Part shown: positions 3,862-16,688 of the stretch, piece after piece | Numbering within the stretch: the stretch's first letter is position 1 | How the letters are laid out: each line of letters opens with the position of its first letter | DNA from: Anaerostipes butyraticus | Lineage (GTDB): Bacteria; Bacillota; Clostridia; Lachnospirales; Lachnospiraceae | Assembly (NCBI RefSeq): GCF_016586355.1 | Contig: NZ_BLYI01000062.1 | Coordinates: forward strand, 1-64,000 | Length of the DNA: 64,000 nucleotides | Reading direction: 5' to 3' | Translations under genes and position numbers: made by a program | The notes under the pieces: generated by a model | The model's input: only the letters and a program-made list of their open reading frames with translations | What the model was told of the DNA's origin: nothing | Database searches by the model: none

Positions 3862-4473
3862 TCATATATATTTCATTACTTCTTTTAAACCTCTTCTAGA
3901 TACTTTTTTCCCAATGTCCATTCCATATCCTAACGCAATCGCTGCCACCATACAACCCTCTTCTCCCAAATACGCCTGCAATTCGTTATATGCGTAAAAA
4001 ATATCTGCTATCCAAAGACTGTTAACTTCCTTTTCCGTAGCCATTAATAACATATTTTGTATCGCTGCACCGATTGCCATAATATGTGTACATTCTATAT
4101 CTTTAGCGTTTAATTCCCATCTGACTCCATCATCATGGCCCTTACATTTTTGAAAATCTAAATAAACAAAAATAAGAGTAGGCGCTTCTTTAATTATTCT
4201 CACAGTTTCAAATGCACCTATAATGTCTTCTCGGTAGTTTCCTTGTCTTATATATTTACTTTTAATTCTATTCAACTGATTTTCCAAAATATCAGCTATT
4301 CTTTTTTTCTTCTCAATAGATTTTATTACCAGAAACTTCCATGGTTGATCATTCTTAGGTGATGGTGCCTGAGTTCCTGCCGCTATAATCTCTTCAATAA
4401 TATTTCCCGCTATCTCACTTTTTGTAAATCTTCTGGTACTCTTCCTTTGATAAATTGCGTCTTGTACTTTCAT
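3862..4473 (-). CDS. Nitroreductase-family FMN oxidoreductase
   Basis: 203 residues, the normal length for a single-domain nitroreductase. These cytosolic flavoproteins form homodimers that use NAD(P)H to reduce nitro compounds, quinones or flavins. The FMN phosphate-binding motif RKSTRRF lies at residues 10-16. The conserved APSPKNDQPW loop is at 36-45 and the C-terminal ALGYG motif just before a basic tail. Start supported by GGAG upstream of ATG. It is a lone gene between decayed DNA and an IS110 remnant, with no partner to reveal its substrate. The family is clear; the physiological reaction cannot be told from sequence. Confidence 0.9.
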   Translation of the reverse strand: MKVQDAIYQRKSTRRFTKSEIAGNIIEEIIAAGTQAPSPKNDQPWKFLVIKSIEKKKRIADILENQLNRIKSKYIRQGNYREDIIGAFETVRIIKEAPTLIFVYLDFQKCKGHDDGVRWELNAKDIECTHIMAIGAAIQNMLLMATEKEVNSLWIADIFYAYNELQAYLGEEGCMVAAIALGYGMDIGKKVSRRGLKEVMKYI

Positions 4474-5082: not shown

Positions 5083-7137
5083 TTATATTGCCTCTTTTCC
5101 ATAGGACTCCTCAGAAAAATGTCTCCAATTTAAATCTTCTAGTTTCCCATATTTAGGTTTTTCAGACTTTATAAATGCTACTTCCTCCATCCAAATTTTT
5201 TGCGTGACTGTATTATCCAAATTTTTACATTCAATAAATTTAACATTAATCAACCGGGCATTTGTAAAATCCGCCCCTTTAAAATCGCACTTATAAAATT
5301 CTACATTCGCAATTGCTACATCACTAAAATTTGTGTTTATAAATTTACAATTACTTATGCGAATTCTATTTTTTGCATCTCCTACAAATCGAGCATTCGA
5401 TAAAACACATCGTTCAAAATTTGAATTCTCTATTCGAGCATTAATCCATAATGTATCACGGCATACTGCATCACAAAAAGAAATCTGTTCTAAATGTACA
5501 TTCGACATATCCACAGATATCATAATAGCAAATATAAAAGAAGAATCACTTATAATTGCACCTTTCATTGAAAGATTTGCACAATAAGATTTCCCAAAAT
5601 AGCAATTTTCTATTTTACATTCCGAAAAACTACTTTTATTTAACCTAGCTTCTTCAAAACTTACTTTTTCAAGAATTGAATACGTAAATGTAGCTTCTTG
5701 TAAATTCGCATTTTGAAAATTGCATCTTTTAATGATACTTCTCAATAGATTTGCCTTCTCCATATTGGCATAAGAAAATATAATATTATTTTCTTTTTGT
5801 GCTGAATCCCCTATTTTAGCATCTACAAGACGTACATCAGAAAAATCTGCAAATTCAAAAGTTGTATTATAAATATCTAAATGGCTCAGATTAGCCTTTG
5901 AAAAATTAGAATAATCAAAGTTAAGCAAAGCTCCCTCTTTATCACATGGTCCAATTCTATCCATACCACTCAAATCAGCATTTGTAAAAATAGTACGTTG
6001 CAATTTCATTTTAGTATCAAACAATATCCCTATTAACTTGCAATTTGTAAAATTGGCATTCTCACAATTAGTTTCTTTAAAATGAACTCCATTTAAAGTA
6101 GAATCTCTAAAATCAGTATTTTTCAAATTTGTTTTTCCGTCAAAATATATATTTTTAAGTAAAGAATTACTAAATGATGTTTTTTCTAAATCAGCATTAC
6201 AAATAGTAAAATTACTAATGCTCACTCCTGTTAATAACTCACTTTTTAAATAATTTTGGAAAAGTCGATTCATGATACTTTTTATTTGATCCCCCATTGC
6301 AACATTCCTACTATCTGCAATAGATTTATTCTGTAAAAGCAGATTTCTGTAATTTATAATTTTCTTATAATCTTCCGCTAATATTTCTCTTGTAGTTATA
6401 TCTCCTGAATCTGTTATTCCATCACAAATAGCTCTTTTTAAATCTGAATCATATGTAGAACTCATTTTAGCATGAGAATGATTTTCAATCAATCTTTCTA
6501 CAATAACTTCTATGTTATTTACTAAATTAAGGAACTCTCCTTTTGTCATTTCCTGATAATAACTTATCTTATCATATTCATCCATTTGTTGCTTAGCAAG
6601 TTTTGACAATCCTTCTTCATAATTGATTATTCCATATGTAAAATGCACTAACTTGTATATATTATATAGTGTTATCAAAATAATTCCAGTAATCGCAGTA
6701 TAAACGGATAAACTTAGTGAAATTTTCATTGCTGAAAAAAACGCTTTTACAGATGATTGAAATATGATTATTATACATTCAACAGTTATTGCTATTGCCG
6801 AAAAAAATACACTTATCATCAATTTATTTCTTTTCCTATTTTGAAATAAATCAATTACTTCTCTCTCAAATTGATTACTGTTTCTTCTATTCTGAAAAGT
6901 ATTATTAAGAAACACATAGATTGATACAGAAAAACCCAACATAGAAATTAATATAGTAACTGAAACTTTTATAGTCTCTATAAAACCATCATATATCTTT
7001 TCATAACTACTATAGTAATTTAACTCATAAAAATTTTTTATTAATATCAGAAATAAAATAACAATAAAAATTATGCACAAATTATTTTTTATCCATTTCC
7101 AAATTTTTTCTTTTAACTTTCTGATCTTTACTTTCAT
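5083..7137 (-). CDS. Four-TM pentapeptide-repeat protein
   Basis: 684 residues. Four transmembrane helices fill the N-terminal quarter (about residues 18-35, 54-75, 103-125, 130-160). A helical, probably cytoplasmic linker follows (165-300). From about 300 to 670 it is a long series of A(D/N)LxX-type pentapeptide repeats (NADLEKTSF, NTDFRDSTL, NANFTNCKL, KANLSHLDI), predicted to form a right-handed quadrilateral beta-helix. Soluble pentapeptide proteins such as Qnr, MfpA and McbG protect DNA gyrase, but the membrane anchor here makes that analogy weak. It is the last gene of a three-gene operon, 28 bp after the radical-SAM gene, with an AAGGGG ribosome-binding site. Self-protection or scaffolding for the operon's product is inference only. 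Confidence 0.85.
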   Translation of the reverse strand: MKVKIRKLKEKIWKWIKNNLCIIFIVILFLILIKNFYELNYYSSYEKIYDGFIETIKVSVTILISMLGFSVSIYVFLNNTFQNRRNSNQFEREVIDLFQNRKRNKLMISVFFSAIAITVECIIIIFQSSVKAFFSAMKISLSLSVYTAITGIILITLYNIYKLVHFTYGIINYEEGLSKLAKQQMDEYDKISYYQEMTKGEFLNLVNNIEVIVERLIENHSHAKMSSTYDSDLKRAICDGITDSGDITTREILAEDYKKIINYRNLLLQNKSIADSRNVAMGDQIKSIMNRLFQNYLKSELLTGVSISNFTICNADLEKTSFSNSLLKNIYFDGKTNLKNTDFRDSTLNGVHFKETNCENANFTNCKLIGILFDTKMKLQRTIFTNADLSGMDRIGPCDKEGALLNFDYSNFSKANLSHLDIYNTTFEFADFSDVRLVDAKIGDSAQKENNIIFSYANMEKANLLRSIIKRCNFQNANLQEATFTYSILEKVSFEEARLNKSSFSECKIENCYFGKSYCANLSMKGAIISDSSFIFAIMISVDMSNVHLEQISFCDAVCRDTLWINARIENSNFERCVLSNARFVGDAKNRIRISNCKFINTNFSDVAIANVEFYKCDFKGADFTNARLINVKFIECKNLDNTVTQKIWMEEVAFIKSEKPKYGKLEDLNWRHFSEESYGKEAI

Positions 7138-7165
7138 AGTTTTCCCCTTACTTATCCACTGTAAT

Positions 7166-8242
7166 TTACAAATATTCTTTCAACCAGTTTTGTATTTTCT
7201 CTATTTTTTCCCCATCTTTTTTTGACTGAATCATATTTTCCTCAAATATTTTTTTACAATCACACTTCGAACTCAAAATTGTTTCATATTTTTGCAAAAG
7301 TTGTTTCCGTTCTAAATTATCTGATTTCATTAAAAACATCTGATAAAATTCCATCCACTTATTTTCACAAATACTGCATCCATATGGCGGCAAATTATCT
7401 TGTTGATTATATTTCTCATCGTAATCCACCCAATCCCCATACCACGCTAAATAAACTTTGTTAAGGTACCATCGTGGTATACTCTTTAACACCTCAAAAA
7501 CTGCCCAATGAGAAAGTCGTTCAAACTTCTTTTCTATATATAAATCATATAGCATAGTATGTTTTCTAATATTTACTGGAAAAATTACAATTGAATCCAC
7601 CCCATGACTTACTGCCCATTGAATTGTGTTATTTGTATCTTTTACTTGCTCTGATACCGTCAAAAATGGCGCCCCTAAAAAAACATTCGCAGTCAAACTC
7701 ATCCCCCAGTTATGCACTAGTTTTATTTTCGATTCCAATATATAAAGATTTATTTCTTTATTTAAGCAATTTTTTTGGACAAATTCATCTGCGGATTCAA
7801 CCCCTACTTCGATTACAATATCTTTCTCTGGTAACATTGAAAAAAGCCATTGACATATTTCATTCGTAATAAAAGTATAATGGGTTTCAAAAATAATAGT
7901 TTCTATTGGCAATTGGTTTAAAGTTTCACATATCATAGTTAAGCATTTTAGTGGTACTTCTTCTGGATCTAATACACTCCCTAAGGCCCCTATCAAAATA
8001 CTATTCATACCATCAGATGCCTTACTCATATGTTGCAATACCTTTCCCATCTCTTTTTCTGACAATTTGCTTCCTTCACCATAGTCACACATTGTACAAC
8101 TTCCATTTTTCCTAAAACGGCATCCAGAACTATTCAAACATACGTGCAACAATGTTCCTCTGCTTCTTATAATATCATTTGATGTAATTAATTTTTTACC
8201 ATTTCTTTTGTATTGATTGTACTTTGAAAGTAATTCTTTCAT
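7166..8242 (-). CDS. Radical SAM enzyme, Elp3/RaSEA-like, with C-terminal Cys pairs
   Basis: 358 residues. Cys41, Cys49 and Cys52 (GCRFRKNGSCTMCDYG) form a C-x7-C-x2-C cluster motif in the style of archaeosine-synthesis RaSEA and Elp3-type enzymes, where a GCTMC core binds the SAM-cleaving [4Fe-4S] cluster. EVGVES at 145-150 matches the SAM-contacting strand of that superfamily. Cys289/Cys292 (GCSIC) and Cys327/Cys329 (CDC) could bind an auxiliary cluster or zinc. Start: GGAGAG five bases before ATG. It lies 15 bp after a second radical-SAM gene and 28 bp before a pentapeptide-repeat gene, so it is certainly co-transcribed. The substrate is unknown; archaeosine itself is not expected in bacteria. 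Confidence 0.85.
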   Translation of the reverse strand: MKELLSKYNQYKRNGKKLITSNDIIRSRGTLLHVCLNSSGCRFRKNGSCTMCDYGEGSKLSEKEMGKVLQHMSKASDGMNSILIGALGSVLDPEEVPLKCLTMICETLNQLPIETIIFETHYTFITNEICQWLFSMLPEKDIVIEVGVESADEFVQKNCLNKEINLYILESKIKLVHNWGMSLTANVFLGAPFLTVSEQVKDTNNTIQWAVSHGVDSIVIFPVNIRKHTMLYDLYIEKKFERLSHWAVFEVLKSIPRWYLNKVYLAWYGDWVDYDEKYNQQDNLPPYGCSICENKWMEFYQMFLMKSDNLERKQLLQKYETILSSKCDCKKIFEENMIQSKKDGEKIEKIQNWLKEYL

Positions 8243-8257
8243 AAAAACTCTCCGCTA

Positions 8258-10561
8258 TCATAACATATCGAAAGCTACGGTATTATTTTGACAAGCTGCA
8301 CATTCTGGTCCTAATTTCAAACCATATTGTCTGCATATTACCTCGGCTCTCTCATAGGCTTCCAGTATCCACTCATTATCTGGTGGATTTACATCTTCTA
8401 ATTCAGTAAAAGGAATAGGTCGAAATACAGAAAAAATTGGAGCTACACCCAATTTACACACATACTCTACTCCTTCTAATAGGGAATCCATATCCTCCAA
8501 TCCCAACACAAACGCAGTTCTCACTGCTCCCTTATTTCCTAACAATTCAACTGCTTTTTCTAATGCCGCTTGGTATCTCTCCAATGGGATATTCCCCTTT
8601 CCTGGCATATATTTTTTTGCTATTCTTCTATCAAAAATTTCAATATTAAATCCTATCTCTGTTATTCCGGCAGAAACATATTCTTCAATATCTTCTAAAT
8701 TTATGCTTGGTAAAGCCATTAAATAAATCGGCATATTGGATTTTTCTTTTACGTGTTTGGCAATTTTACAAATATTTTCTTTTTCTTTCCCTACACAATT
8801 CGATAATCCTCCAATTAAAATATGACGAAATCTAATATTTTTTTCATTCAAATAAATATCTCCTGCCTCCATCACATCTTCTGCATTAAATTCTATATCC
8901 TTATATTCTGCGTCACAAAACTTACAAGGTACTCCCTGTTCTTTAAATGTGCAAAAATCAGAATTTTGCAATCTGAGCCGATCTGTTGCTAAAAAACACA
9001 TTCTACTAACAGGAATTCCTTTTGAAGTTGACTGCGTTGCTATTTTATCTGCAAATTCAATCCTAACTTTATATATTTCCTTTTCGTAATAAGTGAGATA
9101 CATACTATTTTTATTCAAAATAATTTTAAATGGTGATAATTGGCTAAACTTTACAGACAACGGTGCATTAACAATATATTTCTCTTCAATAACTAGATCA
9201 ACAGAAAAATAAACTCCTTCTCGCATTCCACCTTGTTTTGCAAGATACTGTTTCACTTTCTTATCTAGTATGACACCTTGATTCAAAAGAGAAATTTTAA
9301 TTTTTCGAAAATCTTTTTTTTCAATAATTCCTGTATGCCATTGCTCACTTGGTCCTAATATATTAGGATGAAGCCAAACAAATTTTTCACCGATTATACT
9401 TACTATATTAGTCGAAAATATCAATCGAAATAAATATGCATCTTCTTCTGCTTCTTGCCATGGAGTATAACCGTCATCTATTAATTCTACTATTGTTTTT
9501 TCATTGTCTTTTATTGATGAAATATGTGCTGCATGATATCTTTGATGATCTTGTATGAAAGAATAAATACTATAATTAATATTCAACTTAGCAAGCTCTT
9601 CCTTTTCAATCAACTCAGAAGTTGGTTTCTGAAAAGCCTCATAATTTAATTCATGAAGACTAGGCATATTTTTTTCCTGTAAAACTTTATTAATTAGTAT
9701 CGTTGACGCCTGGAAACGATTATTTACTTCTAAAATCCATGCCACTTTGTCTACAATTATTGCATCAATTCCTATAATTCCTCTATAGCCTAGCTCTTGA
9801 ATTCTTTGGCATAATATTTCTGTATCATCTACAAATTGTTTCAATATCTCTTTGTCAATATCTCTGTAAGCGATATAATCTGCTCCACGATAAAGCATTC
9901 TTTCTTGGTCTAGTACCATAATCTGTATAGATCCTTGCGTAATTAGAATATCCTGATCATAAATAATTGCATGAATATTGATGGGAATATTTTTTTCATA
10001 ATATGGTGACACCAAATATATTTTTTCATCATCTATGTTTTTAAGTATCCCTTGTTCATTCTTCTCATCTAGCAAAAATGTTTCATACCCTCCCGAAGCA
10101 ATATCTGATTGAACAATCCACTTATCATATCCATTAAAAATTCTTTTTAATTTCGCCACTCTACATTCTTTTCCCAGCAATTCTTCCGAATGTAATGTAT
10201 GTACGTACTTTCTAGCAAACTTTCGAAATGAAATTTTTGAATCTAAAAAACGCATAATATTTTCTTCATTCAAACATACTGTATGCTTTACTACATCATC
10301 ATTACAACCATATATCAAATTAGGATTATAAGCCATAAATTTAATTGAAGGATCCTTTTCAATTAATTTTAATTCGTTTTCAACTATAAATTCTGTTTGT
10401 TCCTGTGTTATATGATTATGATTAATACGATAGTCCTTTGTGAGACAAAAAGCTTTATTTTCCCTTTTTGACCCTCCATATAATGTTACTGCTCCTGAAA
10501 AAAAATCTCCAGTATATTCTTTATCACTTTCTCTTGGTCCATTCCAAATTATTTTTGCCAC
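8258..10561 (-). CDS. ATP-grasp / radical SAM fusion enzyme of unknown pathway
   Basis: 767 residues from the GTG at 10559-10561. A GTG nine bases further upstream overlaps the GGAG ribosome-binding site, so it is unlikely to be the start. Residues below are counted from that upstream GTG. About 120-315 form an ATP-grasp ligase domain; the metal-binding strand reads GIDAIIVDKVAWILEVNNRF, with Glu281 and Asn283 as Mg-ATP ligands. About 320-520 is an unrecognised middle region. About 520-770 is a radical-SAM domain with C-x8-C-x2-C (Cys540, 549, 552), a GGLSN loop and a terminal CAAC pair (757, 760). ATP-grasp ligases join a carboxylate to an amine or thiol, so the fusion suggests that ligation and radical chemistry act on one small substrate. 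No precursor peptide was found nearby. First gene of the operon. Confidence 0.85.
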   Translation of the reverse strand: MAKIIWNGPRESDKEYTGDFFSGAVTLYGGSKRENKAFCLTKDYRINHNHITQEQTEFIVENELKLIEKDPSIKFMAYNPNLIYGCNDDVVKHTVCLNEENIMRFLDSKISFRKFARKYVHTLHSEELLGKECRVAKLKRIFNGYDKWIVQSDIASGGYETFLLDEKNEQGILKNIDDEKIYLVSPYYEKNIPINIHAIIYDQDILITQGSIQIMVLDQERMLYRGADYIAYRDIDKEILKQFVDDTEILCQRIQELGYRGIIGIDAIIVDKVAWILEVNNRFQASTILINKVLQEKNMPSLHELNYEAFQKPTSELIEKEELAKLNINYSIYSFIQDHQRYHAAHISSIKDNEKTIVELIDDGYTPWQEAEEDAYLFRLIFSTNIVSIIGEKFVWLHPNILGPSEQWHTGIIEKKDFRKIKISLLNQGVILDKKVKQYLAKQGGMREGVYFSVDLVIEEKYIVNAPLSVKFSQLSPFKIILNKNSMYLTYYEKEIYKVRIEFADKIATQSTSKGIPVSRMCFLATDRLRLQNSDFCTFKEQGVPCKFCDAEYKDIEFNAEDVMEAGDIYLNEKNIRFRHILIGGLSNCVGKEKENICKIAKHVKEKSNMPIYLMALPSINLEDIEEYVSAGITEIGFNIEIFDRRIAKKYMPGKGNIPLERYQAALEKAVELLGNKGAVRTAFVLGLEDMDSLLEGVEYVCKLGVAPIFSVFRPIPFTELEDVNPPDNEWILEAYERAEVICRQYGLKLGPECAACQNNTVAFDML

Positions 10562-10582
10562 AAAAGTCACTCCAATTCTTTT

Positions 10583-10611
10583 ATTATATTTTGTATAACA
10601 AAATACATCTT
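10583..10611 (-). promoter_or_regulatory. Promoter with palindromic operator for the radical-SAM operon
   Basis: On the minus strand a perfect TATAAT (10583-10588) lies about 20 bp before the GTG start. A 19-bp inverted repeat, TATTTTGT-TAT-ACAAAATA (10587-10605), overlaps it and fills the spacer up to a poor -35 (AAGATG, 10606-10611). A weak -35 with a palindrome in the spacer is typical of a regulated promoter. The binding protein is unknown and no regulator gene adjoins. Confidence 0.45.
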
Positions 10612-10706
10612 TATGTATAATAAAGACATATTTTTTATCTTGTTTAATCTTTATTGATGATTATTTGAAAAATTCTTTTTACAGAAATATGTTTTATTAA
10701 ATATCC

Positions 10707-11888
10707 CTAAATTAACCTTCCTATATTGAATAAAAGAATTCTTCTAATCTTCTCTTTCAGTCTCTGCATCACTCTTGGCTTTTTCACTTCAACCGTCGGA
10801 AAGTACTGATTTACCAGTTCTTCAAAATCATCGGCTGTTACCTGTTTTATGAATTCATCTCTTGCCTCATGTGGTTTTGATGAATTTACCATGCTTACGT
10901 TTTCCTTGTAAGCGTCCTCAAGACTAACCTGCAGAGAATCTATCTGATCCTGTAACTCATTCAAAATCTGTCGTCCTTTCTCTGTATGTACAAAAACAAC
11001 GCTGGTTCCTTTATTGTCATCAAATTCAGGATGCTGGTTCCAGATTCCCCAGTAATCACCGAGTGTAAAATCTGTACACCTCTCTACGCCTTTTGCTTTG
11101 CAATCACTACAGGAATTACGGAGACAAATGTTTCCGATAAAAGCCTTCATAAATAAATCTTGTCCGTTTTTCGTTCTTGTTATATGATCCGGACTATAAA
11201 CGAATTCTGTGGAATATCCATATCTGCTCCATCCACTTTCTTTGGATCTCATATTTATTTGAGTCGGCCGCTGTCCGCTATTTTCTTTTTGGGAACGATA
11301 ATCAATATATGCCTGCCAGACCTTAGGCGAAGGCACTCCATGACAAATAAGATCTGTCGTTACCAGATCATCGTATTCTTTCCCTAAATATTTCTTCAAA
11401 CCTGTGCACTGACATGGAGTGCCCGAAAAAAGAACCTTTCTTCCTGTTTGAAGAATCTCCTTTATCTTTAAAAATAAATCATCTAATTTACTCTGGGAAT
11501 ATTTAGCACCCTGGAGTAAACACAGTTGCTCTTTATTTTCTACAAAAGTATGATACACCACAAAATTTTCATCATACGCTGCACCTAATACAATGCCGCC
11601 TTGATTCAAAATGTATTTTGCAAAGATTGGAAAAATACCTCCGGAAGTACTCTTATTTCTTTCGCTATCATTTCTACTCTTAATCGCAAATGCTAATGTC
11701 TGCCTGCTTAATTCAGGTTCATTAATAACCGGACAGACACTTTCACACTGTCCACAGTCAATGCATTTATCCATATCAATAAGAGGATACAAAAACTCTT
11801 CTCCGTTGTCTTCCATCGATATGCAATTTTTAGGGCAGATGTTAACACAGGCGTGACAGCCTGTGCAGTTAAATGGCACTGTAAACAT
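10707..11888 (-). CDS. FrhB-like iron-sulfur protein of the polysaccharide cluster
   Basis: 393 residues. Two ferredoxin motifs open the protein: Cys8/11/14/18 (CTGCHACVNICP) and Cys42/45/48/52 (CIDCGQCESVCP), enough for two [4Fe-4S] clusters. The rest is the domain of coenzyme F420 hydrogenase/dehydrogenase beta subunits, with the FSGTPCQCTGL motif at about 155-165 and CSDCKAKG further on. Such proteins recur in capsule loci beside polysaccharide pyruvyl transferases, as here, and probably act as flavin/FeS oxidoreductases on a sugar or its pyruvyl donor; F420 is not implied. Last gene of the exopolysaccharide operon, 17 bp after a glycosyltransferase. The family is firm, the reaction unknown. 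Confidence 0.85.
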   Translation of the reverse strand: MFTVPFNCTGCHACVNICPKNCISMEDNGEEFLYPLIDMDKCIDCGQCESVCPVINEPELSRQTLAFAIKSRNDSERNKSTSGGIFPIFAKYILNQGGIVLGAAYDENFVVYHTFVENKEQLCLLQGAKYSQSKLDDLFLKIKEILQTGRKVLFSGTPCQCTGLKKYLGKEYDDLVTTDLICHGVPSPKVWQAYIDYRSQKENSGQRPTQINMRSKESGWSRYGYSTEFVYSPDHITRTKNGQDLFMKAFIGNICLRNSCSDCKAKGVERCTDFTLGDYWGIWNQHPEFDDNKGTSVVFVHTEKGRQILNELQDQIDSLQVSLEDAYKENVSMVNSSKPHEARDEFIKQVTADDFEELVNQYFPTVEVKKPRVMQRLKEKIRRILLFNIGRLI

Positions 11889-14507: not shown

Positions 14508-15677
14508 TTACATCATTTTTTCAACCATATCTTTTGCTAAATACGCTCTATTGATATAATCTGGCATGATTTTTTGAAGATGAATGCGTATTTCATCTTC
14601 ATGATTTTCTAGCCATTGAAACGCTTCCTTCAGTTCATCTTTATCTTTAATCCCCTGTACCGGCAATACATAATTCTTTTCTTCTCCAAACAAATCTCTT
14701 GCGATTCCCCGTGACTTTACCGAATATCCAAGAACCAATGTCGGAACGCAATTGGAATAAGCCGCTATTGTAGCATGCGTTCTTGCACCTATAAAGAATC
14801 GACACCGAGCAATATATCCTTTCAATTCCATGCAATTACAGTCTCGAATTAGTACAATCCGGTTTGAATCTTTAAACCTGTTATAAAGTAATTTTAATGG
14901 TTCCAAATCATTATTGTTTTCCCATACAACATGCGGAATTAACGCAATTCCATATGATGTATAATCTAATATATATTGCATCAATGTAGCATATGTCTCT
15001 ATTATCAAATTTCCATCTTCTGCACTTTTCATAATCAATGGGCTAACATTGATTCCGATCATATTTCCTTCGTTCCACCTCTTTGGAAGTTCTAAATCCT
15101 GTCTTGGCAAGGTAAATGCCGGATCAGATACTAAAATCGTATTTTTATTCACTTTTTTCAATGCTTCAAATGAAATCGATTCCCTGGCTGTAATCAAATC
15201 ATATCGCGCAAAATCCTCAGCAAGCTCTGGTTGATTAACTAACTCTGGCTCAACAGAACAGCCCCATAAAACAGTTTTAGCTCCTTTTTTATGCAGCCAA
15301 TAATTCTGCCCAATAAGTGTTTCGACCCCTTCATAACAATAATTATCTCCTCCTATAGAAAGATAAATATCTCCTTTCTTTGCTTTAGACAATAAATCTT
15401 GAAAACGAAATAGGGATTCCAATTTTCTCGTTCCTTTTGTCTTAAATTCCACTCCAGCTAAATAGTATCGTAATGACGGTTTGCATGCAGGTGCATCAAT
15501 ATTTGTTTCTATCGAGAAAAACTCATTAAGCCCATACATATTATCTTGTTCTACTGAATACGAAAACAGCTTTATTTTATTAGAAAACATTGCAGCCGTA
15601 CTACGCGCTAACGCTTCACATCCATGATTTTTACTTCCAGCATGTCCATATAAATTAATCACTGTTATTTCCTCCAA
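14508..15677 (-). CDS. Polysaccharide pyruvyl transferase family protein
   Basis: 389 residues. Family enzymes transfer an enolpyruvyl group from phosphoenolpyruvate to a sugar, making a ketal that puts a negative charge on the polymer. Family marks are NLYGHAGSKNHGCEAL near residue 8, a GGDNY loop near 110, LIPHVVWE in the middle, and FIGARTHATIAAYS with SRGIARDLFG towards the end. Its neighbours, the Wzx flippase and an FrhB-like FeS protein three genes downstream, form an association often seen in clostridial and Bacteroides glycan loci. It lies 28 bp before the flippase gene. The acceptor sugar is unknown. Confidence 0.9.
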   Translation of the reverse strand: MEEITVINLYGHAGSKNHGCEALARSTAAMFSNKIKLFSYSVEQDNMYGLNEFFSIETNIDAPACKPSLRYYLAGVEFKTKGTRKLESLFRFQDLLSKAKKGDIYLSIGGDNYCYEGVETLIGQNYWLHKKGAKTVLWGCSVEPELVNQPELAEDFARYDLITARESISFEALKKVNKNTILVSDPAFTLPRQDLELPKRWNEGNMIGINVSPLIMKSAEDGNLIIETYATLMQYILDYTSYGIALIPHVVWENNNDLEPLKLLYNRFKDSNRIVLIRDCNCMELKGYIARCRFFIGARTHATIAAYSNCVPTLVLGYSVKSRGIARDLFGEEKNYVLPVQGIKDKDELKEAFQWLENHEDEIRIHLQKIMPDYINRAYLAKDMVEKMM

Positions 15678-15707
15678 TTTAACTCTAATATTTTATAATC
15701 TATTCTT

Positions 15708-16688
15708 CTAAATGCCAATTTTTAAGAGATTTCGAATCATACAAGTTTTTTCAACTGAATATTTTGTCAGATACCACCATATCTTATATTTAAAATTTAT
15801 CTGCTGTAATTCATACTTTGAAAATGGATAATTCCCTAAAATTTTTCTAATGATTTTAAAAGTCTCAATACATTCCTTTTTTTCTAAATATTTAAGTGCC
15901 ATCTGCCCCATATACAAACATGAAAACCATAATTTTTTATGTTCTGCAAATCGCAACTCTGGGAAATTATGAGTAATATATTCAAGCTTTCCCTCATGTG
16001 CTTCTATTCCTTGCAAACGCTTAAGTGAAAAAGATATATGCATCACTGACTGACTCTGCTGTCGATACGCATACAGAACTTTTTCCACATGAACCAGGTT
16101 TCTGGCATTTCCAATCACCTTATAAGTCCAAAACTCATCATCAATTAATTTGCCTTCTGGGAACCGGATATCTCCAATAACATTTCGTCTATATAATTTA
16201 TTCCATATTACCTGCTGGAACCAATGTCCCTCTATATTCTCACGCATTGCTTCTTCAACAGAAAACCTTTTTGCTCTCGGATCTATCGTTTGATCTGAGA
16301 ATTTTTCAGAGTCATTTTCAACCATACAATAATTACACTCCACAATATCGACATCTGTGGAAAAAAAAGAATATAAGGTTTCAAACATATTAGGCGATAT
16401 ATAATCATCACTATCCACAAAAGCTATATATTCTCCTTTTGCACAATCCATTGCGCGATTACGCGCTTTTCCCCCACCTCCATTATGTTGATGAATTACT
16501 GTAATTCTGGAATCTTCTATCTCCCATTGATCACACATTTCCGAACATCGATCTGGTGATCCATCTTCAACAAGTATTATTTCCAGATTCCTATATGTTT
16601 GTTCCACTATACTTTGTATACATTTATCTAGATATTTTTCGACTTTATACACTGGTACAATCACACTAATCAGCGGTGTTTGTTCCAT
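15708..16688 (-). CDS. Family 2 glycosyltransferase
   Basis: 326 residues from the ATG at 16686-16688, which has AAGGAGG eight bases before it; an upstream GTG overlaps that site. GT-A transferase: LISVIVPVYKVEKYLD at the N-terminus, VEDGSPD for UDP binding, and FVDSDDY as the metal-binding motif at about residue 93. Likely one of the sugar-adding steps in repeat-unit assembly. The C-terminus (YPFSKYELQQINFKYKIW) is the type common in clostridial capsule transferases. Donor not predictable. Confidence 0.9.
   Translation of the reverse strand: MEQTPLISVIVPVYKVEKYLDKCIQSIVEQTYRNLEIILVEDGSPDRCSEMCDQWEIEDSRITVIHQHNGGGGKARNRAMDCAKGEYIAFVDSDDYISPNMFETLYSFFSTDVDIVECNYCMVENDSEKFSDQTIDPRAKRFSVEEAMRENIEGHWFQQVIWNKLYRRNVIGDIRFPEGKLIDDEFWTYKVIGNARNLVHVEKVLYAYRQQSQSVMHISFSLKRLQGIEAHEGKLEYITHNFPELRFAEHKKLWFSCLYMGQMALKYLEKKECIETFKIIRKILGNYPFSKYELQQINFKYKIWWYLTKYSVEKTCMIRNLLKIGI

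Follow-up and report, generated by a model that had tools for sequence, protein, structure and literature searches.

In phage Mu, the invertible G segment carries two alternative genes that point inward and are reached by a promoter outside the segment. A radical-SAM enzyme (PylB) and an ATP-grasp ligase (PylC) work on amino acids in the pyrrolysine pathway, and the MSMEG_0568, or variant radical-SAM, family is tied to the Nit1C cluster. Among anti-phage systems, Hailong has HalA as its effector. The P segment of Escherichia coli is inverted by PinQ, as stated in a passage of one report (PMC12529663). Passages of two papers by Kaur et al. describe TRADD-N and ternary conflict systems in which constant modules are combined with pentapeptide, TPR or STAND parts; a radical-SAM domain occurs in a subset of them (PMC8195603, PMC7159879). 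These systems differ from the locus described here in that "ATP-grasp" is absent from both main texts and that invertible pairing is unmentioned in the passages concerned (PMC8195603, PMC7159879).

The present locus lies in a 64,000-nucleotide stretch of Anaerostipes butyraticus DNA, the whole of which is called the window, and encodes an ATP-grasp/radical-SAM fusion protein (FUS), a radical-SAM protein resembling RaSEA and a membrane pentapeptide-repeat protein (PENTA) (Table 1). The coordinates and minus-strand orientation of the three genes in the preliminary description, and the gaps of 15 and 28 bp between them, were confirmed by an ORF check. The AT-richness of the region also holds (GC 29.5%, against 38.9% in the window; lower in 2 of 235 intervals of 5.5 kb), as does the neighboring glycan locus, judged from the sequences. 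The supposed IS110 remnant is less secure, being a tblastn match (E 1.5e-4) at 27% identity that overlaps the end of the PENTA gene. The regulated promoter is likewise weak: the best candidate, at 10646-10617, matches 9 of 12 consensus positions, and it lies in a region where such matches number 48, close to the 43.7 expected from shuffles (sd 7.2). A full-text literature search agrees that no system with this gene set has been described; it covered open-access papers only and is therefore weak evidence. On balance, the locus seems to be a locked, operon-type relative of mobile two-arm modules in which a small-molecule arm is set against a PENTA arm, and which are mostly inverted by an XerC-like recombinase.

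Table 1. Genes of the locus in the window
Feature	Coordinates	Strand	Remarks
FUS	8258-10570	-	770 aa, GTG start
RaSEA-like radical-SAM protein	7166-8242	-	358 aa
PENTA (class 2, membrane pentapeptide-repeat protein)	5083-7137	-	684 aa
Nitroreductase, probable fourth member	3862-4473	-	609 bp downstream

FUS is composed of an ATP-grasp part (approximately residues 1-408) and a variant radical-SAM part (approximately 423-747), and the ATP-grasp_3 and Radical_SAM profiles both exceed their Pfam cut-offs (31.7 bits for ATP-grasp; cut-off 23.2). The radical-SAM half contains the cluster motif CX8CX2C, with an additional CX2C at the C-terminus, and passes the variant_rSAM model NF045502 (176.7 bits; cut-off 125). 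It differs from the MSMEG_0568 family in being fused to an ATP-grasp half and in scoring below the cut-off with TIGR04043 (95.1 versus 303.7 bits). Residues Q154, E281, N283, R285, C540, C549, C552, C757 and C760 are invariant across 38 rows of the alignment, and E281 and N283 are presumably metal ligands. A structure was predicted with pLDDT 93 and pTM 0.92; in the fold search it matched the PurK-type structure 3k5i with Z 27.1 over 351 residues and PylC with Z 22.6. Judged by profile, predicted fold and the conserved E/N residues, the N-terminal half is of the ATP-grasp ligase type. The combination of a radical-SAM enzyme with an ATP-grasp ligase recalls PylB and PylC, but FUS is a single fused protein, and PurK and biotin carboxylase fit its fold better than PylC does.

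The second enzyme aligns with positions 13-242 of the 313 in the RaSEA model TIGR01210, and with the queuine lyase 6p78 (E 7.4e-5). It differs from the RaSEA of archaeosine synthesis in that it scores about half the cut-off (112.8 bits versus 212.15), sits in a bacterial host and accompanies FUS in 11 of 47 loci; eight RaSEA-like proteins were aligned. Other optional partners of the enzyme arm in relatives are a nitroreductase, an nspC-like decarboxylase, a methyltransferase and a PPDK-like ligase. The nitroreductase adjoins FUS or is fused to it in five relatives (fused in L040 and L042). The window nitroreductase is the best match in its own genome to the homologue of L048 (41% identity over the full length; the next match covers 61 residues) and probably belongs to the set of the window.

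Relatives were collected by a genome scan with FUS as the sole query, which gave 71 loci; 25 with split or partial FUS were left out, and the remaining 46 and the window make up 47 full-FUS loci. Gene maps cover the window and 58 of the 71. By this FUS-only search, PENTA adjoins FUS in 35 of the full-FUS loci and lies one gene apart in 9 (44 of 47), the window being counted in the latter manner because the RaSEA-like gene stands between; a pentapeptide ORF is present at 1 of the 25 loci with partial or split FUS. FUS and PENTA are the core pair, and RaSEA is optional. The expectation that three genes co-occur thus stands for FUS and PENTA, but the full trio is found in 9 of 47 loci and is not the unit; the scan did not find the three genes scattered without co-occurrence. 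The gene order of the window is unique among the 47 loci. As to a phage origin, a search of viral_contigs gave 51 pattern matches with none confirmed, and one weak, unannotated phage match of 15% coverage. As to a plasmid origin, 507 plasmid records match but none reaches 80% of FUS, and the 15 of these that were listed cover the radical-SAM half alone. Both candidates were rejected.

PENTA proteins fall into classes 1 and 2, and may have different jobs, because only the pentapeptide repeats are common to both. The window protein, of class 2, has four hydrophobic segments at about residues 15-157, a linker and a pentapeptide region at about 311-645, where the pentapeptide models far exceed the Pfam cut-off. 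For the PENTA proteins of L037 and L041, the same scan gives no hydrophobic segment at all. Sizes in the family are about 440-1340 residues, except for L067 and for L049, whose protein is split over two ORFs. The 13 class-2 rows in the repeat test described below include a 176-aa pentapeptide-like ORF at L060, which is left out of the PENTA counts. The predicted fold is that of a class-1 relative (L079), which stands in for the class-2 protein of the window, and its search list is dominated by the beta-helix, so that the helical/alpha-beta part was hardly probed. HalA of Hailong likewise joins pentapeptide and membrane parts and has an enzyme partner whose product may gate it; the profile and fold similarities are weak. 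On the window protein, the HalA profile gives 50.2 bits, in the repeats only (cut-off 250), and the HalA structure 9nyi ranks 48 against the class-1 model (E 9.7e-4, probability 0.66) and is absent among the 50 matches listed by a second search. The partner of PENTA is an ATP-grasp/radical-SAM protein, whereas that of Hailong is a nucleotidyltransferase.

In the relatives, inverted repeats frame the segment in 32 of 33 convergent FUS-PENTA pairs, the exception being L038. Sorted by class, they are found at all 32 class-1 convergent pairs versus none of the 13 class-2 rows. Of 52 other convergent gene pairs at these loci, taken as a control, 4 have inverted repeats with a score of at least 16. 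The repeat of L046, clipped by contig ends, is 16 bp, equal to the shuffle maximum of 16, and L036 and L056 had less than 300 bp of left flank. The repeats nearly always contain a 17-bp core, GATAAY-N5-RTTATC, which occurs 54 times at repeats and 3 times in the remainder of 1.15 Mb, against 1.0 in shuffles. The arms of the core are conserved across loci and the spacers vary (28 distinct); equality of the spacers within a pair follows largely from the way pairs were found, as repeats. Just outside the segment, 15 loci have an XerC-like recombinase of one family (on the FUS side in 10, on the PENTA side in 5), which scores 240.9 bits with the XerC model (cut-off 335). The integrase of L067 was left out of this family (22-39% identity), and the recombinase of L072 is a 64-aa fragment.

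The enzyme arm and PENTA occupy opposite arms of an apparently invertible segment in 32 loci. In one isolate assembly, an identical 4,594-bp recombinase flank leads either to PENTA (L065) or to the RaSEA/FUS arm (L149), the change occurring at the core; such a two-junction assembly could represent a true duplication instead of a mixture. A chromosomal site and recombinase are common to L042 and L048, which turn opposite module ends toward the recombinase; not only the orientation but also the content of their modules differs. The convergent layout, with a same-spacer core on both flanks, recurs at a further locus (G572). For a genus-level search for the same locus in reversed orientation, the genera to which G273 and G149 belong offer one genome each. 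As read from the DNA, inversion in the relatives is well supported. Because repeats, recombinase and both junctions in one assembly are found, the usual form of the family appears to be an invertible module, probably of an either/or kind.

The distance from the repeat to the first gene exceeds 70 bp in just 3 FUS arms and 3 PENTA arms, out of 32 of each, and therefore leaves scant space for an inner promoter. In 8 loci, strong promoter-like sites lie outside just one of the two sides, and in no locus outside both; scores are ordinary in 18 of the 26 loci open to this test, with a cut-off set after the scores were known. The idea that the core serves as a -10 box was dropped, because scoring gave no consistent -35 outside it. 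The repeats could instead be the ends of mobile cassettes, with the recombinase moving or exchanging modules and orientation having no regulatory meaning. In favor of this view, L042 and L048 have different modules at the same site, several module types use one site type, and the modules occur sporadically: counting the window's own genome, full FUS is present in 1 genome out of 11 in its genus and in 3 out of 392 in its order. Tyrosine recombinases, however, cause inversion and not excision at inverted sites with matching spacers, and the presence of both junctions in one assembly and the short inner gaps also argue against this explanation, which we regard as unlikely. Module exchange and switching are mutually compatible.

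The window itself is a relative and not a member of the invertible form, because no core-bearing repeats surround its pair: in the repeat test, a flanking repeat pair of the relatives' kind is absent from its locus. Matches to the core in the window are no more numerous than chance, and no cognate recombinase was found at the locus (the best in the genome has 32% identity); the possibility of a hidden invertible element was rejected on these grounds. A set of 23 inverted repeats (71-94% complementarity) in 8.5 kb, counted without a shuffle control, is read as background of AT-rich DNA. The operon of the window implies co-expression, which sits awkwardly with a need for exclusive expression elsewhere.

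In sibling modules, an enzyme arm is paired with a SIR2-NACHT or P-loop NTPase arm in six of six cases (L069, L142, two in L144, L145 and L146), five of which come from regions fetched for core pairs. Other regions of the same ten include one of the FUS type (L147), four with one core each (L148-L151) and one that overlaps L144 and is partly unreadable (L143). Several module types have the site type in common.

These arrangements bear on two explanations that tie PENTA to the enzymes directly. According to the first, FUS and RaSEA produce an antibiotic or modified metabolite directed at gyrase or DNA, and PENTA shields the target as AlbG and Qnr do. The PENTA repeat region does match AlbG, Qnr and MfpA in sequence and, in the class-1 model, in its beta-helix (Z approximately 18-20); partners such as the PPDK-like protein (similar to prodigiosin ligases), the nspC-like decarboxylase and methyltransferases resemble those of natural products; and a related split ATP-grasp and radical-SAM pair lies in a small cluster of enzyme-like genes. 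On the window protein, however, the Qnr profile reaches 54.5 bits (cut-off 240) and the MfpA profile 35.7 bits (cut-off 360), and the chains of the resistance proteins are about 180-220 residues long, whereas PENTA is large, mostly membrane-linked and has helical, alpha-beta or membrane parts. With PENTA on the opposite arm in 32 loci, a producer would tend to be without its protection; SIR2-NACHT or P-loop NTPase proteins fill the PENTA slot in siblings; and the ABC-ATPase and MATE-like genes that recur in the flanks of some loci all lie outside the repeats. This explanation is quite improbable, and the self-protected pathway suggested by the preliminary description fits badly. According to the second, PENTA is the substrate of FUS, which would introduce amide cross-links into the beta-helix or carry out C-H chemistry there. 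Known RiPP pathways offer precedents for peptide modification by ATP-grasp and radical-SAM enzymes, FUS and PENTA are tightly linked, and in the window's clade both genes are on the same strand. Against these points, the enzyme and its supposed substrate are on opposing arms in 32 loci, an alignment of 29 rows of class-1 PENTA has only 5 invariant columns, which are scattered, and quite different proteins occupy the PENTA slot in sibling modules; it is the least probable of the explanations considered here.

A conflict or defense role is favored over an antibiotic with self-resistance because the arm opposite the small-molecule enzymes in the siblings encodes a SIR2-NACHT or P-loop NTPase protein. 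The earlier suggestion of a defense-like system fits better than self-protection in this respect and in the presence of a TIR protein at two loci, but PADLOC-DB 2.0.0 has no family matching the three window proteins at E up to 1. PADLOC gave no match for the five P-loop NTPases of the sibling modules, and matched five of ten neighbors and partners, with good scores for a type I methyltransferase near L035 (634 bits) and the hydrolase-methyltransferase of L070 (68 bits), and weakly for TIR, PtuA-like and TPR proteins.

In the two-arm module that we favor, one arm would make a small molecule: the ATP-grasp half of FUS would couple an amine to a carboxylate using ATP, and further modification would fall to the radical-SAM half with its optional partners. 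The other arm would supply PENTA, a beta-helix attached to the membrane either through segments of its own or via a helper protein; the product would act on PENTA, which is a likely sensor, effector or guard. The XerC-like recombinase would flip the segment of convergent arms at the GATAAY-N5-RTTATC sites, such that an outside promoter reaches one arm per orientation; in the window's clade, both genes would have been merged into a single operon and the switch lost. The Mu G and E. coli P segments similarly have an outside recombinase and inverted sites around convergent genes, with an outside promoter serving one arm at a time, as would also be so in the present family. They are known, however, for swapping versions of one function, whereas here an enzyme is exchanged for a membrane repeat or NTPase-type protein, the recombinase of the relatives is an XerC-like tyrosine recombinase and the window copy has no switch.

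A broader reading, put forward tentatively and as doubtful, is that these modules represent an undescribed general class of inversion switch, by which individual cells of gut bacteria choose between a small amino-acid-type molecule and an immune-type protein (a pentapeptide membrane protein, SIR2-NACHT or a P-loop NTPase) that senses or answers it. Co-presence of the two would be self-activating, cells would be divided into makers and sentinels, and the window lineage would have escaped via a single operon and a re-built membrane part. The switch lends itself to direct testing, since the modules occur in isolates, one of which has both junctions in its assembly. If correct, this would be a two-state switch, with an XerC-like recombinase and a simple site code, that exchanges a biosynthetic enzyme for an immune-type protein of unlike function, and it would account for lone tyrosine recombinases beside such gene pairs. 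Paired GATAAY-N5-RTTATC sites with equal spacers would provide a search handle for more conflict systems, and the uncharacterized ATP-grasp/radical-SAM chemistry would be tied to a likely signal.

The three minus-strand genes of the operon are separated by intergenic gaps of 15 and 28 bp, in agreement with the close spacing noted in the preliminary description, and the AT-richness reported there is also borne out, the stretch having 29.5% GC against 38.9% for the whole window, with lower values in 2 of 235 windows of 5.5 kb. With 176.7 bits, the fusion of ATP-grasp and variant radical-SAM domains (FUS) lies above the cut-off of 125 for the variant_rSAM domain model. The second radical-SAM protein (RaSEA-like) reaches 112.8 bits with the RaSEA model, below the cut-off of 212, and is matched by the queuine lyase 6p78 at E 7.4e-5. 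In the pentapeptide-repeat protein (PENTA), four hydrophobic segments at the N-terminus precede the pentapeptide region. A single FUS match is present in the window's genome (3.17 Mb, 85 contigs). With that genome counted throughout, full FUS occurs in 1 of 11 genomes of the genus, 6 of 299 of the family and, at a threshold of E up to 1e-100, 3 of 392 of the order and 2 of 391 of the class. This distribution is sporadic, a pattern that fits acquired DNA. A big glycan locus (10707-31615) adjoins the operon; it contains, on sequence reading only, flippase-like, polysaccharide pyruvyl transferase-like, several glycosyltransferase and nucleotide-sugar enzyme genes, and the one gene identified beyond such reading encodes an FrhB/FdhB-type protein (10707-11888).

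Features of the window operon and of core-site-framed convergent pairs without FUS (sibling modules) in genomes of the scanned FUS loci
Feature	Region	Position	Strand	Basis or content
FUS, 770 aa	window	8258-10570	minus	ORF; ATP-grasp and radical-SAM, each over Pfam cut-off
RaSEA-like protein, 358 aa	window	7166-8242	minus	ORF; profile and 6p78 matches
PENTA, 684 aa	window	5083-7137	minus	ORF; pentapeptide region C-terminal
Sibling	L142	5765-12370		HAD and ATP-grasp/methyltransferase vs protein with SIR2-type PADLOC matches, NACHT match below cut-off
Siblings	L144	1248-5259, 7622-11858		two pairs within one region
Sibling	L069	9607-13621		GNAT-SHMT vs membrane P-loop NTPase, looser core
Sibling	L145	5730-9580		SHMT vs membrane P-loop NTPase
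Sibling	L146	4914-12213		methyltransferase vs NTPase-TPR protein

With an alignment of six FUS proteins as the only query, a scan of a genome collection yielded 71 loci, 46 of them with full-length FUS, which together with the window gave 47 loci and 49 FUS proteins. PENTA accompanies FUS in 44 of the 47 (32 convergent loci, class 1, and 12 with a window-type PENTA, class 2), with no intervening gene of at least 150 aa in 35 of these and one in nine. The full-FUS loci without PENTA are L060 and L078, which are sisters 86% identical, and L077, whose contig stops about 120 bp past FUS; among loci with split or partial FUS matches, a pentapeptide ORF is found in 1 of 25. FUS and PENTA are almost certainly functionally paired. 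A RaSEA-like protein is present in 11 of the 47 loci and in the split locus L084. The hosts of FUS are mostly Clostridia and some Bacilli; rarer hosts are one Bacteroidales, one Deltaproteobacterium, one Chitinispirillales and two other Proteobacteria-type records (L070, L080).

The facing coding ends of class-1 FUS and PENTA genes overlap in 14 of 31 measured loci, and overlap or lie at most 15 bp apart in 26. Inverted repeats of 16-124 bp surround the pair in 30 of 32 class-1 loci and 0 of 13 class-2 rows under a tight margin, and in all 32 class-1 loci when the margin allows for over-long ORF starts; the repeat search found none around the convergent class-2 pair L038. A 17-bp core site, GATAAY-N5-RTTATC, is legible in 31 of the 32 repeat pairs if one or two looser positions are permitted, and exact-consensus cores number 54 at repeats and 3 elsewhere in 1.15 Mb, where shuffles expect 1.0. 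The N5 spacers on the two sides are equal in 31 of 31 loci, which mostly reflects that the pairs were identified as repeats. The informative evidence is instead that the core arms are conserved between loci while the spacers vary (28 distinct), and that a repeat-independent pattern scan again found nearby inverted sites with equal spacers elsewhere in these genomes. Among 52 other convergent pairs in the same loci, used as a control, four score at least 16, and the highest (18) is itself a sibling module. Fifteen loci have a tyrosine recombinase directly outside the repeats, on the FUS side in ten and on the PENTA side in five; these recombinases form one family, which scores 240.9 bits against the XerC model, below the cut-off of 335.

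Class-1 modules are very probably invertible. The assembly containing L065 (KE159600, Lachnospiraceae bacterium 28-4) has another contig that terminates in the same recombinase flank, identical over 4,594 bp, and at the core the two contigs diverge, one leading to PENTA and the other to the RaSEA/FUS arm. The two junctions could alternatively be read as a true duplication; the enzyme-arm contig aligns with the other end of the L065 module (103 bp at 97%), and by eye the two are identical over the 91 bp that start at the core. Inversion is further addressed by L042 and L048, which share a flank from the repeat outward (a recombinase gene at 77%, then a gene labelled MutY-like by sequence reading and beyond, at 77-82% DNA identity) that is faced by opposite module ends in the two loci, the module content differing too. 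In five loci (L046, L051, L053, L055, L068), the contig breaks off at or within the repeat on either side, which is suggestive of a mixed population, although assembly with short k-mers may also cause such ends. The later-found region G572 shows the expected layout, its two contigs being joined by inference only: one carries the recombinase, the core and the start of PENTA, and the other a core with the same spacer, followed by RaSEA, FUS, a membrane protein in convergent orientation and a PENTA-like end.

Of 26 testable loci, 8 have strong promoter-like sites, called with a cut-off set after the scores were seen, directly outside the repeat on one side only (L039, L043, L047, L054 and L075 at the FUS side; L044, L045 and L049 at the PENTA side); among the 25 loci legible at both, none has such sites on both sides. 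More than 70 bp separate the repeat from the first gene in 3 of 32 FUS arms and in the same number of the 32 PENTA arms. Because these sites are one-sided and the gaps short, we infer that expression probably depends on orientation, with either one arm or the other transcribed.

A quick-search FUS tree of 53 rows, with SH-aLRT as its only support measure, has convergent invertible loci scattered through it, both Proteobacteria-type rows included. The window FUS groups with other class-2 rows in a clade (support 99) that numbers ten rows and covers eight loci. In this clade PENTA lies downstream of FUS on the same strand and has N-terminal membrane segments in most members, L037 and L041 excepted. 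The repeat search found no flanking repeat pair in the window, core-site matches there are at chance level, and the window's genome holds no close module-type recombinase (best match, 32% identity). On this unrooted tree, the most economical account would be that the clade lost the switch and merged both arms into one operon.

The predicted FUS structure is confident (pLDDT 93, pTM 0.92). Over its N-terminal 408 residues the model matches PurK-type 3k5i (Z 27.1, 351 residues, 3.9 A), and further ATP-grasp ligases match as well, among them lysine-bound PylC (Z 22.6). Invariant in 38 FUS rows are radical-SAM C540, C549 and C552, C-terminal C757/C760, and ATP-grasp E281, N283 and R285. In the model of a class-1 PENTA (L079, pLDDT 85), residues 33-190 form a beta-helix and 225-336 a helical part, followed by a beta-alpha-beta-beta unit at 341-399 and, at 421-445, a hydrophobic helix. 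Matches to the repeats include AlbG, Qnr and MfpA; HalA matches the model weakly (E 9.7e-4).

Judging from its domains and optional partners, FUS is reasonably likely to make a small-molecule product that is amide-linked and amino-acid-derived. Helper genes within the repeats encode membrane proteins of the DUF4760 type in 5 loci, a membrane protein of 240 aa in 5 and RaSEA in 6; ABC-ATPase and MATE-like genes occur in the flanks only, outside the repeats. A nitroreductase is joined to the FUS N-terminus in L040 (733-3618) and L042 (9395-12265), which supports counting the window nitroreductase (3862-4473) as a member. A carboxynorspermidine-decarboxylase-like gene stands near FUS or split FUS in L060, L062, L066, L067, L078 and L084 (382.9 bits against nspC in L062, cut-off 409), and such neighbours hint at a polyamine-like product. 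Directly after PENTA, L034 (14883-16772) and L036 (5427-7052) have a PPDK/PEP-synthase-like protein, that of L034 resembling prodigiosin ligases. In L032 (7292-14503), a small cluster carries ATP-grasp and radical-SAM as separate genes that belong broadly to the FUS family, near proteins named, purely from sequence, as M20-like peptidase, aldehyde-dehydrogenase-like and NTN-hydrolase-like. Between PENTA and a second FUS, L041 encodes a TIR-methyltransferase fusion (15169-16512) and L037 its homologue (10072-11415); the TIR_2 and methyltransferase models were run on the L041 protein only, that of L037 being assigned by homology.

In all six sibling modules, a small-molecule enzyme arm is set against an arm encoding a SIR2 or NTPase protein, the NTPase assignments being mostly below Pfam cut-offs; PADLOC gave no match for any of the five NTPases. 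One L144 pair, whose core is one base off, opposes GNAT-SHMT to a membrane P-loop NTPase; the other opposes a glycosyltransferase to a 1020-aa P-loop NTPase. The recombinase near the L145 sibling is 77% identical to that of L061, and the L146 sibling is broken by what reads as an IS66 insertion. PENTA thus occupies the slot of SIR2-NACHT and STAND-like proteins.

A role in conflict or defence, with PENTA as sensor, effector or guard, has about an even chance of being correct. In the operon form of the window, FUS and PENTA would be produced together. The HalB product keeps HalA quiet, and by analogy one fit for the window operon would be a guard model in which the enzyme product holds PENTA quiet. 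The flip mechanism of the modules is of a known kind, like those of the Mu G segment and of PinQ (PMC12529663). What appears to be new is the combination of genes and the coupling of dissimilar functions; searches of open-access full texts found no description of an ATP-grasp, radical-SAM and pentapeptide set or of inversion modules with NACHT, STAND or anti-phage proteins, an absence that is weak evidence. The six pairs without FUS may define a class wider than the FUS-PENTA modules.
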